NCBI GenBank assembly: GCA_029287615.1
Contig: JARFQV010000064.1
Span: forward strand, 1 to 46,273
Direction: 5' to 3'
DNA from: Pseudomonadota bacterium
GTDB taxonomy: Bacteria > Pseudomonadota > Gammaproteobacteria > UBA9214
Length of the DNA stretch: 46,273 nt
The position numbers and the translations under genes were made by a program. How positions within the stretch are numbered: the stretch's first letter is position 1; every line of letters begins with the position of its first letter. The notes under the pieces were generated by a model. It was not told where the DNA came from and searched no databases. It was given only the letters and a program-made list of their open reading frames with translations. Positions 20,181 to 25,695 of this stretch are shown here, piece by piece.

Positions 20181-21224
20181 ATGATGAACACTTCCAATAA
20201 TGGCCCGGTTGAAGTCCTGATCGTCGCTGTGCCGGAGACCGCGGGTTCCGCACTGTACGGTATGGTGGATGTGCTCCTGGCCGCCGGAAACATCTGGCAG
20301 ACGCTGGTGCGGACCGAACCGGTGCAGTCCCTGTTCCGGGTCCGGATCATCGCCCCGACCGGGGAGGCATTTACCTGCGGAAACAGGATCCCGGTTTGCC
20401 CCGATTGCTCCGTTGCAGACAACCCCGGGGCCAGCATCCTGATCTTGCCCGAACTCTGGCTGGGTCCGGACGAGGACATCCGGGGACGCTATCCTGAATT
20501 GATGGAATGGATACGCCAGGCATACCGGGAAGGCGCCAGCCTTTACTCCGCCTGTTCCGGGGCTGTCATGCTGGCCGAAACCGGTCTGCTGGATGGATGT
20601 GAAGCCACCTCTCACTGGGGCTATCAGGATCTTTTCAGCAAGCGATACCCGAAAATCCGCTTCCGCCCGGAACCGAATCTTGTTTTCGCCGATCCGGCAG
20701 GCCGGATCGTTACTGCAGGTGGCACCACTTCCTGGCACGATCTCGCCTTGCATATCATTACCCGCCACTGCAGCCCGGGGGAGGCGCTGCGTATCGCCAA
20801 GGTATACCTGCTGAAATGGCACAGCGAGGGGCAGTTACCCTATGCATCTCTCGTGCGCCGGGGGCCGCACGCGGATTCCGTGGTGCGGAGCTGCGAGCAA
20901 TGGCTGGGCGAGCATTTCCGGGATAGCGATGCAATCCAGCAGGTCCTCATGCAGATAAACATCCCGGAACGCACCTTGAAGCGACGTTTCAAGGCGGCGA
21001 CCGGATCCACGCTGATCGATTACCTGCAGAACCTGCGTGTCGAAGCAGCCAAACGCCTGCTCGAGACCGGGCAGATGCCAGTGGATGAGATCAGTGCAAG
21101 TGTCAGTTACGAAGACCCGTCCTTTTTCCGCAGGCTGTTCAAGCGACGCACGGGCCTCACCCCCGCTGCCTATCGTCGCATGTTCCAGCCGGTCTTCGAT
21201 GCACCAATAACCGGGCGGAATTAG
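20181..21224 (+). CDS. GlxA family transcriptional regulator (DJ-1/PfpI domain plus AraC HTH)
   Basis: 347 residues. The N-terminal 190 form a DJ-1/PfpI class I glutamine amidotransferase-like domain, with the nucleophile-elbow-like YSACSGAVMLAETGLLDG followed by ATSHWGY. The C-terminal 110 residues hold the two AraC helix-turn-helix units (IPERTLKRRFKAATG.TLIDYLQNLRVEAAKRLLE, then DEISASVSYEDPSFFRRLFKRRTGLTPAAYRRMF). Such regulators usually activate neighbouring catabolic or stress genes. AGGGGCGTC precedes two consecutive ATG codons at 20181 and 20184. The divergent osmC-like gene is the obvious candidate target. It converges on the reverse transcriptase gene. Confidence 0.92.
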   Translation: MMNTSNNGPVEVLIVAVPETAGSALYGMVDVLLAAGNIWQTLVRTEPVQSLFRVRIIAPTGEAFTCGNRIPVCPDCSVADNPGASILILPELWLGPDEDIRGRYPELMEWIRQAYREGASLYSACSGAVMLAETGLLDGCEATSHWGYQDLFSKRYPKIRFRPEPNLVFADPAGRIVTAGGTTSWHDLALHIITRHCSPGEALRIAKVYLLKWHSEGQLPYASLVRRGPHADSVVRSCEQWLGEHFRDSDAIQQVLMQINIPERTLKRRFKAATGSTLIDYLQNLRVEAAKRLLETGQMPVDEISASVSYEDPSFFRRLFKRRTGLTPAAYRRMFQPVFDAPITGRN

Positions 21225-21279
21225 CGACATGGTCGTGACCAGTTGCTGCTCGCCCCGGACCGGGATCGTACTCCGTTGT

Positions 21280-21314
21280 ATATCCGGTAATCGGATTTCC
21301 GGGCAACCGGATAT
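21280..21314. terminator. 9-bp inverted repeat between AraC and reverse transcriptase genes
   Basis: ATATCCGGT (21280-21288) and ACCGGATAT (21306-21314) pair perfectly around a 17-base loop that itself contains CGG-attt-CCG. It sits in the 139-base gap between converging genes and probably ends one or both transcripts, though no T-run follows. Confidence 0.4.
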
Positions 21315-21363
21315 CAGTAGTTCGTCATGGTCGGTCAGTGATCGATAACCCTGGTGGCTGTGA

Positions 21364-22686
21364 CTACTTCCATCTGACCTGTTCCATCAGTGTTTGCAGT
21401 TTTTTCCCTCGCTCAGGATTCAGGAAGGAGATATTGCTGACTCGCCCCTGCAGGTGCTGGCGAAAATCCTGGCGCTTGTCCCGATTCTGGGATTCCGGCC
21501 CGTGGGTGACGCAATTAAACAGCGTTGCCTTGAGTGTGTCATATTCGCACCGTGCAGGGTTTGGCCTTACATTCACCGTGATCCCGCAAAAACGCTGACG
21601 TTGTGACCTTGTCATCATACGAGTTTTGCGGTGATTCAGTCGAAAACCCTCTTCCAGAGTGATAGCGCCGATCAGGGGCAGCACAGTCCTGGCCAGATAG
21701 TGCCGGTCAATCGTCCCGGAAATGGCGAGGTCATCGGCATATCGGGTGTAGTGCAGATCCAGTCGCTGCCCCAGTCCGTGTAATCTGGAATCGAGGTGCC
21801 AGGCACACAGATTGGCCAGCGCGGGGGAGGTTGGTGCTCCCTGGGGTAAATGACGGTTGCGCAGCATCTTTCTAAAATCCCAGGGAAGCTGCCGGAAGGC
21901 CGGGCCCGCGAGAGGGACTGACGTTCGGTGGGTGCAAAGGCCGGCAAGGATTCTGCTGACTCCGGAGGGATAACCCAGGCTGCTGAACACCGCCCTGACA
22001 CGAGCCCAGCCGACAGAGGGGAAGAAGTTCTGCAAGTCCAGGCGCAGCAGCACATCCCGGCCGAGATGGGGCATCACAGCAGTTTTACAGGATCTCCCCC
22101 GGCAAAATCCGTGAGCGGATGCATGGATGGGCACCCGATCGAGAATCTCTCCGAGAATCATGTGCTGCACGGCCTTGAGCCGCGGCTTCGGTTTTTCTAG
22201 CAGGCGTTGATGTCCGTGTCTACGGGATTGCCATCCGTAGTGGTAGTGATGCAGCCTGGTATCCTGCTCGGGTTCGTGCCGTCTATCGATGCCCGCAAAC
22301 CATTCCAGTTCCTTATCCGATAATCCCAGCCAGATTGCCAGATCATGTACGGTTGGTATCAATGGCAGTGGCTGTGTGGCAAGACCAGGGATCATGGCCT
22401 GCATGGTTGCGGGTTGAAGCGGTAATCGAATGACTGTCTCTTGTGCGCCAGGCTGTTTGAAGCGTTCCCGGAAATCATTGTCTGTCGACAGAACCTCCAC
22501 CAGGCGTGAAAAGGAGGGCGAGCGCTCGGACCCGCAGTGAAATAGTATCCTTGCAGCCAGTGCGGAAGGGTCTGGTGGTCCACCGCTCAGCGCAGCGGAT
22601 AACAGGTCGGTGAGCGCTACCTTGCTCCAGGGCGTATCGAGGATGACAAGCGACAGCTGTCGAGCGGCAGTTTGAAGCGGATTCAT
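21364..22686 (-). CDS. Retron-type reverse transcriptase with N-terminal extension
   Basis: 440 residues. About 110 N-terminal residues match nothing I know; they are followed by a retron-like approach region, LAIWLGLSDKELEWFAGI (116-133). The RT core then shows RRHGHQRLLEKPKPRLKAVQ, motif A LDLQNFFPS with Asp217, motif B PQGAPTSPALANLCA (281-295) and the catalytic YADD (316-319). The C-terminal GRVSNISFLNPERGKKL segment is typical of the retron thumb. The usual retron VTG triplet reads FCG (CGITVN, 367-372), a deviation. There is no maturase or HNH domain, so a group II intron is unlikely. Directly upstream on the same strand is a region folding like an msr-msd RNA. The ATG at 22686 starts about 30 bases after the proposed a2 segment. 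Confidence 0.88.
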   Translation of the reverse strand: MNPLQTAARQLSLVILDTPWSKVALTDLLSAALSGGPPDPSALAARILFHCGSERSPSFSRLVEVLSTDNDFRERFKQPGAQETVIRLPLQPATMQAMIPGLATQPLPLIPTVHDLAIWLGLSDKELEWFAGIDRRHEPEQDTRLHHYHYGWQSRRHGHQRLLEKPKPRLKAVQHMILGEILDRVPIHASAHGFCRGRSCKTAVMPHLGRDVLLRLDLQNFFPSVGWARVRAVFSSLGYPSGVSRILAGLCTHRTSVPLAGPAFRQLPWDFRKMLRNRHLPQGAPTSPALANLCAWHLDSRLHGLGQRLDLHYTRYADDLAISGTIDRHYLARTVLPLIGAITLEEGFRLNHRKTRMMTRSQRQRFCGITVNVRPNPARCEYDTLKATLFNCVTHGPESQNRDKRQDFRQHLQGRVSNISFLNPERGKKLQTLMEQVRWK

Positions 22687-22715
22687 CCGTACCCAGCTCT
22701 TGTGCCAGAGCGAGG

Positions 22716-22881
22716 GGCAGCCAGTGCTCCGACTATTCTCGTTTGGCGCGGACGTTCCTGCGTGCAGCGCAGTTTCGTCCGTGCGATGTATTGCCAGTTA
22801 CTACCAGCCCCCGGGGTTACCCCGGAGGTTCCCTCATGACACCACAAGGTACACAGGGACGACTCGGAGATGACTGCCGGA
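22716..22881 (-). ncRNA. Candidate retron msr-msd RNA
   Basis: Read on the minus strand. Segment a1 (GGCAGTCATCTCCGAGT, 22878-22862) can pair with a2 (AGTCGGAGCACTGGCTGCC, 22734-22716): eight pairs, a small internal loop, then six more. Between them are a hairpin closed by TCCCT/AGGGA (22859-22830) with an inner ACC-ttgt-GGT, a perfect CCGGGG-taa-CCCCGG hairpin (22825-22811), and a long imperfect hairpin (22784-22746). The long hairpin's outer 9-bp arm has one wobble, with an inner CTGCG/CGCAG arm. The order a1, short hairpins (msr), long hairpin (msd), a2, RT matches known retrons. The priming guanosine and the msr/msd border are not assigned. Confidence 0.62.
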
Positions 22882-22887
22882 GGCCAG

Positions 22888-22915
22888 CTTACAGCCCTGT
22901 TTTCTGCGTTGTCAA
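22888..22915 (-). promoter_or_regulatory. Promoter for the candidate retron transcript
   Basis: On the minus strand a perfect -35 TTGACA (22915-22910) is followed after 16 bases by TGTAAG (22893-22888), a 4-of-6 match to the -10 consensus. Transcription would start near 22881, only a few bases before the proposed a1 segment. That places one transcript across the structured RNA and the reverse transcriptase gene. Confidence 0.5.
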
Positions 22916-23039
22916 CTTAACCCGAACAATGGCTGAAAGGGCTTGTTCAGGGAAGAAACCGGATCGGCCGCAGGATTCGCAAGGGATTAGCGGTGCCGTG
23001 TTCTGCAAACGCGGTTGCTCGCGGATCAATGAAAACAGC

Positions 23040-25127
23040 CTACTGGCATTCGGAGGCACGGGCCAATTTAACATTATTGCTTGCGCTGAACTCATCAAAA
23101 TTCAGAATCGTCGGTGCAAAGCCATCGGCATAGACCTGTAATTTAACCTGTCCGTTACCGTCCAGCGGGACGTTCAATGCATAGGTACCTGCCCCGTCAC
23201 AGGAAAACATGTATTGTCCGTTCGCCAGCACCATGGCGCAGATTGGTGTTTGCGGATCCTGACCCACCAGCACCTGTCCGGATATATCAATCCACTGACC
23301 GGCAGAACCCGGGTATACACCAGGGTCGGCTAACTGATTATAGTCAGGACAACTTCCGGCAGCAGACATGGTGATGTCTTGTTGTCCCGATTCGTAAAGA
23401 TTGACGATATAGGGATGGAAGCCGTCCGCATACACCTGTAATTTTATGCTGCCGTCTGTTTCCTGGGAGAGATTGCTTAACGAGAATAGACCAGTGGGAT
23501 TGCAGGAGAACACATATTGCCCACTCGCCAGAACGATGGCACAGATCTCCTGTCCATCGGCAGATCTTATCATGCTGCTGGGGATCCCGGTGCTCCCGGG
23601 CAGATATTCCACTGCACCCATATCCGGTTCGGCACCCGGGACATCCGTGCCATAGAAATCCTCGGTGATTCCGACATATGCTCCGGCATTGATGAGCGGA
23701 CTGCTCGCCAGCGGTGACCAGGTCAAGGGATCGATTCCGAGGTTGTTATCTGCAACATCGTTAACACCCAGTATTTCAGGATAAATCTCTCCGCTCCAGG
23801 TGTTGCCGGATATTCCGGACCAGGCGTTATAGTCCGCGGACAGGTTTGTAACACTATCTGTGTCCATGGAAAAAATACCGTTGTTAAACACGTTATTCTT
23901 GATTTCGACAGTATCGGTATTGACTATCTGCACTACCCATCCCGAAAAGCCGGGTTGGTTATTGAATGTGTTATGGAACAGCGCTACGTTGCTCGCGCTA
24001 TTCAACCGCACCCCACTCGGTATCTGACTTCCGTAGATTCCCGGATCGGCCGGTTCCTCGAAGACATTGCTGGATATCAAGAGATCTCGATCCGGGCGTT
24101 GTTGCGTATTTGTTCCTTTGGCGATATTCAGGTGTATGACGTTATCGTAGAAGTGGTTCTTTCGAATGGTAACGCCACTGGCCTGGTTCAGGACGGCAAG
24201 AGAAGTACCGATTGCCCCGGTTGCATCCTGTCCCGGCAGCGTGGGACGGAAACCATGGATCGTGTTATTCTCCACCAGGATCGGTCCGGGTCCATGCTTG
24301 ATGCCAATCGCAGTCTCTCCCACATTGCCAAAGCCCGGGTCTTGCACGACAGCGCCTGTTGTATCCCTGTATCTGTATGGCCTCACGATCTCGAATTCAT
24401 TATGGCTGATCTCGATGTCTGTATACCGGGAACCCGCTGAATCCAGTAACTGAATGCCATTGGCACCAATATCAGTAAAACGATTTCCTGCAATCGTTAT
24501 AGTGTCAGCCTGGTAGGTCATCATGATTCCGAAAATATCAACGCCTGAACGACGGCTTCGCAGATTATCGAAAATATTGTTCTCAATCAAAATGGACGTG
24601 CCACAGTTGATTCGAATGCCATCAAAATCACTGTGCTGAAAGTTAACGCGTCGAACGGTAATATTCTCGGCCAATGAGACACACTGGCTGCTTTCCGGAA
24701 GAATGCTGGTATCACGCCGCCCGATAACCATGGTTTTTGAATTCTGGAAAACAAGGTCTTCAAAGATCCACCCTTTCCTGCCACCAATCGCGAAGGCCGT
24801 CGTATTGCTTCCGATAACCGGTGTTTCATTCGGATAGGACGTTATGGTGATCGGATTGGCAGGTGTGCCATCTGTATAATTGCTCGTATCAAGATTAACC
24901 GTTTCGGAATAAAGACCTGCGCGCAGATAAAGGGTATCACCGGGGGATAGCTGTCGCATTGCATACGACAACGTAGCGAAGGCATCATCCGGCAGGAGGC
25001 CACTGTTTCTGTTGTCACCCACATTGACATGAACATGGTAATCTGTCGCATAGGCAGATGCAGTACACAGCAACTGGATAACCAACAGGACTACTATTCC
25101 AGGAGAGTCAACAGGTATTCCTTTCAT
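23040..25127 (-). CDS. Secreted right-handed beta-helix protein with two C-terminal tandem modules
   Basis: 695 residues. A signal peptide (to about ASAYA) is followed by DYHVHVNVGDNRNSGLLPDDAFATLSYAM, a typical opening of parallel beta-helix (DUF1565/pectate-lyase-like) proteins. Many rungs of the type ITVRRVNFQHSDFDGIRI and ILIENNIFDNL run to about residue 500. The C-terminus has two copies of a module of about 65 residues: ICAIVLASGQYVFSC..IKLQVYADGF and ICAMVLANGQYMFSC..VKLQVYADGF, each with paired cysteines. The role is probably binding or cleaving a polysaccharide outside the cell; no catalytic residues were identified. The ATG at 25127 has AGGTGG five bases upstream; an upstream GTG at 25136 is less likely. 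Confidence 0.85.
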   Translation of the reverse strand: MKGIPVDSPGIVVLLVIQLLCTASAYATDYHVHVNVGDNRNSGLLPDDAFATLSYAMRQLSPGDTLYLRAGLYSETVNLDTSNYTDGTPANPITITSYPNETPVIGSNTTAFAIGGRKGWIFEDLVFQNSKTMVIGRRDTSILPESSQCVSLAENITVRRVNFQHSDFDGIRINCGTSILIENNIFDNLRSRRSGVDIFGIMMTYQADTITIAGNRFTDIGANGIQLLDSAGSRYTDIEISHNEFEIVRPYRYRDTTGAVVQDPGFGNVGETAIGIKHGPGPILVENNTIHGFRPTLPGQDATGAIGTSLAVLNQASGVTIRKNHFYDNVIHLNIAKGTNTQQRPDRDLLISSNVFEEPADPGIYGSQIPSGVRLNSASNVALFHNTFNNQPGFSGWVVQIVNTDTVEIKNNVFNNGIFSMDTDSVTNLSADYNAWSGISGNTWSGEIYPEILGVNDVADNNLGIDPLTWSPLASSPLINAGAYVGITEDFYGTDVPGAEPDMGAVEYLPGSTGIPSSMIRSADGQEICAIVLASGQYVFSCNPTGLFSLSNLSQETDGSIKLQVYADGFHPYIVNLYESGQQDITMSAAGSCPDYNQLADPGVYPGSAGQWIDISGQVLVGQDPQTPICAMVLANGQYMFSCDGAGTYALNVPLDGNGQVKLQVYADGFAPTILNFDEFSASNNVKLARASECQ

Positions 25128-25695
25128 GACAGCCACCTATGCACTTCTATGTTCCCAGGTATAACGGCATGGCTACCCGACTCTGAAAATGCTGTTTTGC
25201 AGGACAGAAACAACCAGGATTGCTGTTGTTTGCATCCACTACCCAGGTATCTGATCTTTAGAAGAAACCTGGTTGAGTGTGATGATGCAGGGGTTACGGA
25301 AATTCGGCATATGACTCCCGGATCTTGTAACACAGTTCAGGATCACGCCCGAAATCGTGTGAATAGTGGCGCATGCAGATAAATGGGTGTGAAAGGGATG
25401 CCACAATCAGATAACCCATTAGATCAGTGGGGCGGCTTCTCCGCTTCACACTGAAGCTGCCCTTTATTCAAGGTTTGTATACTATTCCCGGGCTTGATTC
25501 TGTGACGCAGTTTGCAAAATACCGTGAACACAGTTTATGACCACCAGGGATGACAGAGTGTTTTCTGAAGGGATGGGGGGATGGAGGAAGGGGCGAAAGG
25601 GCGATCGTCACCCGCCAAAACATACCCGCAGTGCCTGAGTTCGTGGCTGATGTGAGAGTGCAAGAGGACTGCGGGATAACCGGGTAATGGGCAAT
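25128..25695. other. Long intergenic region with a lone plus-strand terminator
   Basis: About 568 bases without a recognisable gene. GGGCGGCTTC (25430-25439) pairs with GAAGCTGCCC (25453-25462; one G-U pair), followed by TTTATT, which reads as an intrinsic terminator for plus-strand transcription. No plus-strand gene lies upstream within the gap, so an unannotated small RNA is possible. A purine-rich stretch lies near 25560-25600. Confidence 0.45.

Follow-up and report, generated by a model that had tools for sequence, protein, structure and literature searches.

An RT gene that lies directly downstream of a structured RNA, with no effector gene at its side, raises the question of whether the locus is a retron and, if so, how it could act. 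Such a locus occupies the middle of the window, i.e. the whole 46,273-nt contig analyzed here, from a gammaproteobacterium of the lineage UBA9214. A preliminary description had proposed a promoter, an msr-msd-like RNA and a retron-type reverse transcriptase (RT) in this order. We consider it highly probable that the locus is an msr-msd-RT retron of an untyped RT clade, as judged by the conserved RNA pairing, the RT tree and the 18 top structural matches; this estimate covers identity and mechanism, and excludes a defence role.

The structured RNA, delimited by covariance model R1 and by covariation, spans 165 nt on the minus strand (22716–22880), as do all its elements on that strand. Its closing stem (helices 1 and 2) is formed by the a1 strand (GGCAGTCA-t-CTCCGA, 22864–22878) and the a2 strand (TCGGAG-cac-TGGCTGCC, 22716–22732). 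Within it, folding placed stem-loop 1 of the msr (22830–22859), whose helices 4–6 covary, and stem-loop 2 of the msr (22809–22827), built on helix 7 with the near-invariant CUCCGGGG-UNA-CCCCGGGG. Stem-loop 3 (22746–22784, helices 8 and 9) is the longer one and is the presumed msd hairpin. The short hairpins followed by a long hairpin seen earlier between a1 and a2 are these three, and the 14-pair stem with the RT about 30 bases beyond it was recovered as well (14 pairs, one of them G-U, and 29 nt from the end of a2 to the RT start). Two unpaired residues flank the stem on its inner side: G22863, directly after a1 in the context GAGT (alignment column 26), is the predicted priming (branching) base, and the invariant G22733, just 5′ of a2 (alignment column 269), is the presumed first templating base. 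For the 165-nt RNA the predicted folding energy is −79.7 kcal/mol (z = −4.88), a value that none of 200 shuffled sequences reached. The element is single copy in the source genome, where no second copy was detected. No Rfam family was found in the whole window at gathering scores, or in 21200–23200 at E values up to 10.

Five gammaproteobacterial relatives, with RTs 48–54% identical to that of the window, carry the same RNA (164–169 nt). The model R1, built from these five sequences and the window, scored 131.7 bits at the window (E 2e-23, with the window itself in the training set) and, throughout the family, located the RNA immediately 5′ of the RT. Over 1.05 Mb, R1 gave no full-length match elsewhere, and weak reverse-strand matches fell only at or near the same elements. 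A second model, R2, was built from sixty sequences (alignment A5, the window and 59 other loci) and found 24 further loci outside its training set, at E 5e-6 or better. Of 568 confirmed matches the best 80 were kept, and in 75 of these relatives, from six phyla, the RNA is followed by the RT on one strand; across the family its median length is 167 nt and the gap to the RT is short. Three of the five loci devoid of the RNA (L040, L070 and L090) start at or near the RT, at contig ends. At the other two (L077 and L093) sequence upstream of the RT is present, yet neither RNA model matches it. L077 comes from a Rhizobiaceae metagenome-assembled genome.

In the sixty sequences, 91.2% of the cells are paired (66.9% in shuffles), two-sided changes occur in 45 of the 49 pairs, and the covariation score is 0.584, whereas shuffling gave 0.161 and sliding the partners no more than 0.087; these pairing and covariation figures are inflated because the alignment was fitted to the structure. 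When the six sequences were aligned without any structure, 15 pairs with compensatory change were found. The a1/a2 stem shows two-sided changes in all 15 pairs and ∼96% of cells paired across the 60 sequences; helix 7 of stem-loop 2 has 96% of its cells paired and invariant core pairs; and stem-loop 3 shows two-sided changes in 14 of 14 pairs. Since compensatory changes keep the same pairings in 60 sequences, these pairings are not due to chance. A comparison of homologous RT loci, which had been suggested at the outset, thus reveals conserved a1/a2 pairing and hairpins.

G follows a1 immediately in 58 of 59 sequences, mostly within AAGC, and immediately precedes a2 in 59 of 60. In retrons, priming takes place at a guanosine that lies at the inner end of a1; its usual context is TAGC, with GAGC in Mx65 and CAGC in Mx162 (PMC6868368). 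The position of the RNA, directly upstream of the RT and co-oriented with it, is also what a mere regulatory leader of the RT mRNA, not serving as template, would show. We regard this reading as most improbable: a long-range a1/a2 stem, invariant unpaired Gs and an msd-like hairpin kept across six phyla fit a template-primer RNA, and retron RTs require their cognate msr.

The RT gene (21364–22686, minus strand) encodes a 440-aa protein that PADLOC, AlphaFold2, Foldseek and the tree identify as a retron-type RT. The motifs reported earlier, Asp217 of motif A, PQGAPTSP and YADD, are all present in this ORF, and all 73 family RTs that were aligned have YADD. Residues 1–80 form a five-helix bundle, and residues ∼150–440 the RT and thumb. 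The protein is the only RVT_1 match in the source genome, and no other Pfam domain was found in it. Under PADLOC it scored 455.7 bits with RT_other and 433.8 with RT_outgroup, over nearly its full length, and 299.5 with RT_XIII. Its AlphaFold2 model (pLDDT 93.7) has a retron fold: the 18 best PDB matches by Foldseek are all retron RT chains, headed by the Ec86 RT (7v9x, E 1.7e-19; 7v9u, E 2.4e-18).

Two motif variants count against the retron reading. Where typical retron RTs have NAXXH (region X) the window RT has AVMPH, and where they have VTG (start of region Y) it has FCG. Each motif is typical, not universal, being present in 14 of 16 validated retron RTs; the validated Mx65 and Ec48 RTs lack the N, and those of Vc81 and Ec48 differ at VTG. 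In the clade, H is kept in 73 of 73 RTs and N in 17 of 73 at the first motif, and the second reads LAG in 29 of 73 and VTG in 19 of 73. The canonical forms are therefore partly retained. Also counted against this reading is that R1 and R2 gave no clear match to the proven Mx65 or Mx162 RNAs; R2 reported none at the Mx65, Mx162, type XIII, other retron or DRT2 loci. The lack of an effector gene is a further point against it.

An RT with its own non-coding RNA and no effector gene could as well belong to a non-retron defence system of the DRT2 or DRT9 kind, in which the RNA would be copied without a 2′–5′ branched primer to yield repeats or polymer DNA. NCBIfam Drt2 indeed matches the window RT weakly (28.6 bits, E 7.7e-7, against a cut-off of 390). 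The maximum-likelihood tree, however, splits the retron RTs and the family from the group II intron and DRT2 RTs with support of 100/99, and Foldseek placed the DRT2 and DRT9 structures far below the retron RTs. The retron order of the RNA, its a1/a2 stem and the invariant G at the priming site, as well as the absence of an R2 match at the DRT2 locus, also speak against such a system, which we consider quite unlikely. The RT phylogeny proposed in the preliminary description thus groups this RT with retron RTs. Within the tree the family is one clade (94/99), and Mx65, Mx162 and type XIII form another (93/97). The family falls with the retron RTs as its own clade, and its place inside the retrons is tentative, with several reference rows long-branched.

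If the locus is a retron, the RNA would be transcribed from a promoter with a predicted start at ∼22881. The claimed TTGACA is present as a −35-like element (22910–22915, minus strand), and TTGACTT stands at the same place in four relatives (L016–L019), which supports a promoter. The −10-like TGTAAG (22888–22893, minus strand), proposed from sequence, is weak, and because of this the TTGACA/TGTAAG pair was not listed by a consensus promoter scan of the locus. The RT would then hold the msr hairpins, and we infer that synthesis of msDNA would be primed 2′–5′ by the 2′-OH of G22863. Copying would run from G22733 through stem-loop 3 towards the RNA 5′ end and would halt between stem-loops 3 and 2. 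With the copied template cleared by host RNase H, the predicted product is a branched msDNA whose DNA part measures ∼58–75 nt.

The features of typed retrons I–XIII, an effector gene or a fused effector domain, are absent here. The ORFs up to 4.5 kb from the RT were compared across 88 loci: no accessory gene recurs, and the largest neighbour clusters are apparently generic enzyme families or Burkholderia synteny. The neighbours in the window are a RecD2-type helicase, an OsmC protein, an AraC/DJ-1 regulator and a beta-helix protein. Of the window ORFs scanned with PADLOC, none near the RT was a defence gene, and the RecD2 protein drew only generic helicase matches. The AraC/DJ-1 regulator downstream (20181–21224, plus strand) was considered as a partner and rejected: two relatives from the family of the source organism keep it paired with the same OsmC gene and, within the stretch examined, have no RT. 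The retron is therefore a lineage-specific acquisition or was lost in those two. The flanks shared by several Burkholderia species suggest long residence.

Two further neighbours were noted. In five planctomycete loci (L057, L065, L073, L081 and L088) a membrane-like protein of 225–294 aa is encoded 13–284 nt after the RT, on the plus strand. It is not shared beyond those five loci, and may serve this subgroup as a local partner or simply belong to a shared neighbourhood. A stretch of ∼180 residues at the C-terminal end of the beta-helix protein (23040–25136) recurs, 57–80% identical, in several other proteins of the source genome and in proteins of two relatives, as a shared C-terminal module would.

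With no effector gene beside the RT, the RT–msDNA complex may act by itself, by means of the N-terminal bundle of the RT, or together with a partner from another locus. An effector encoded elsewhere in the genome, a sub-case of the retron reading, would account for the lack of an accessory gene near the RT in the 88 loci. To our knowledge, typed retrons have their effectors adjacent, and the RT neighbourhoods examined yielded no candidate; we hold this sub-case to be possible, on the doubtful side.

The second sub-case is a single-gene toxin-antidote system, in which the RT would carry the effector as its own N-terminal helical bundle, restrained by the msDNA. The extension is present in all near-full-length clade members, which have no recurring neighbour, and residues 1–80 folded alone are confidently predicted as five helices (pLDDT 87.6); retron types XI and XII, as labelled in PADLOC, are single-gene fusions. 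The N-terminus is, however, the least conserved part of the RT (∼1.4 bits per column, against ∼3 in the RT) and holds no invariant residues, contrary to what is expected of a catalytic site. The bundle matched nothing in the PDB at E below 0.9, and no Pfam domain was found in it. Its low conservation and lack of a PDB match are evidence against a catalytic effector and are compatible with a binding or docking role. We rate the bundle as effector rather unlikely. As for the retron as a whole, an anti-phage sensing role would be the default guess, by analogy with other retrons.

The distribution of the clade was sampled by a scan of a genome collection with alignment A1. Of the 80 best-scoring among 568 confirmed matches, and hence as sample counts, 32 are from Planctomycetota, 20 from Pseudomonadota, 12 from Acidobacteriota, 7 from Verrucomicrobiota, 4 from Actinomycetota and 3 from Myxococcota, and 2 bear no phylum label. 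In 369 Gammaproteobacteria genomes, members were found in the source genome and three others, and the RT is absent from 22 other genomes of the source organism's family. Members also occur on plasmids and extra chromosomes of Burkholderia, Tsukamurella and Dietzia. Two scans of viral contigs gave no relatives, and phages gave distant RTs only, none spanning 80% of the query. In Myxococcus, genomes G057 and G063–G088 have two to five matches each to the window RT, belonging to several retron-type lineages, and 13 of the 27 genomes searched have a clade member. A further myxobacterial RT lineage of ∼540–550 aa (L108 and L109, in G066 and G076) branches near Mx65 and Mx162.

We offer, as a speculation with a limited chance of being right, that these are widespread early-branching retrons without an adjacent effector, in some hosts stably inherited chromosomal genes, whose msDNA serves a function other than effector-release defence or whose variable N-terminal bundle is a new built-in effector. 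How a retron functions without an adjacent effector is a question that dates from the discovery of the myxobacterial retrons. The clade offers more than 80 loci in six phyla, a precise RNA model, and a predicted priming base and DNA product, so that msDNA synthesis and function are directly testable. A further possible use of the compact RNA (∼165 nt) is as a new template scaffold for DNA production in cells.

Among known systems, the experimentally proven Mx65 (Retron-Mxa2) of Myxococcus xanthus shares the msr-msd-RT order with the window locus. We placed its RT at G085:C27:37959-39242, where contig number and published coordinates agree with the Myxococcus match and the length is 427 aa, as expected (PMC8934634). 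This RT is of similar length to the window RT and likewise has an N-terminal extension and a changed N in NAXXH; the priming motifs are also alike, GAGC in Mx65 and GAGT in the window. The two RTs are, however, only 41–44% identical over residues 102–431, and the Mx65 RNA is not clearly matched (18.4 bits with R1, none with R2). The window element is not Mx65 itself, which lies in a different clade; M. xanthus DSM 16526 has both Mx65 and a member of the present clade.

Mx162 (Retron-Mxa1), whose RT was recognized by its length of 485 aa and its sequence, and the type XIII RTs have a long N-terminal extension and belong to the same RT superfamily as the window RT. They form a separate branch. 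RT_XIII is the best-scoring model for the Mx65 and Mx162 RTs; the window RT scores 156 bits less under it than under RT_other. In structure, the closest match is Retron-Eco1 (Ec86), with TM 0.83 on the target for 7v9u. Its RT is shorter (∼320 aa), is 25% identical to the window RT over the match, and works with an effector, with which its structure was solved (7v9x), whereas none adjoins the window RT.

The closest fit is to two untyped retron models of PADLOC, RT_other (PDLC02949) and RT_outgroup (PDLC03740), which match the window RT over its full length, including the N-terminal extension, and under which other clade members score 456–555 bits. These are protein models only, with no type, effector or RNA. 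The locus was thus undescribed in part: the RT already fits untyped retron models, and the RNA belongs to no Rfam family. We found no paper on the RNA of this clade in a search that lay apart from the main retron census surveys, and an earlier description is possible. What is known is the RT, as an untyped PADLOC retron, and what is probably new is an RNA family of its own in a retron clade that lacks an adjacent effector.
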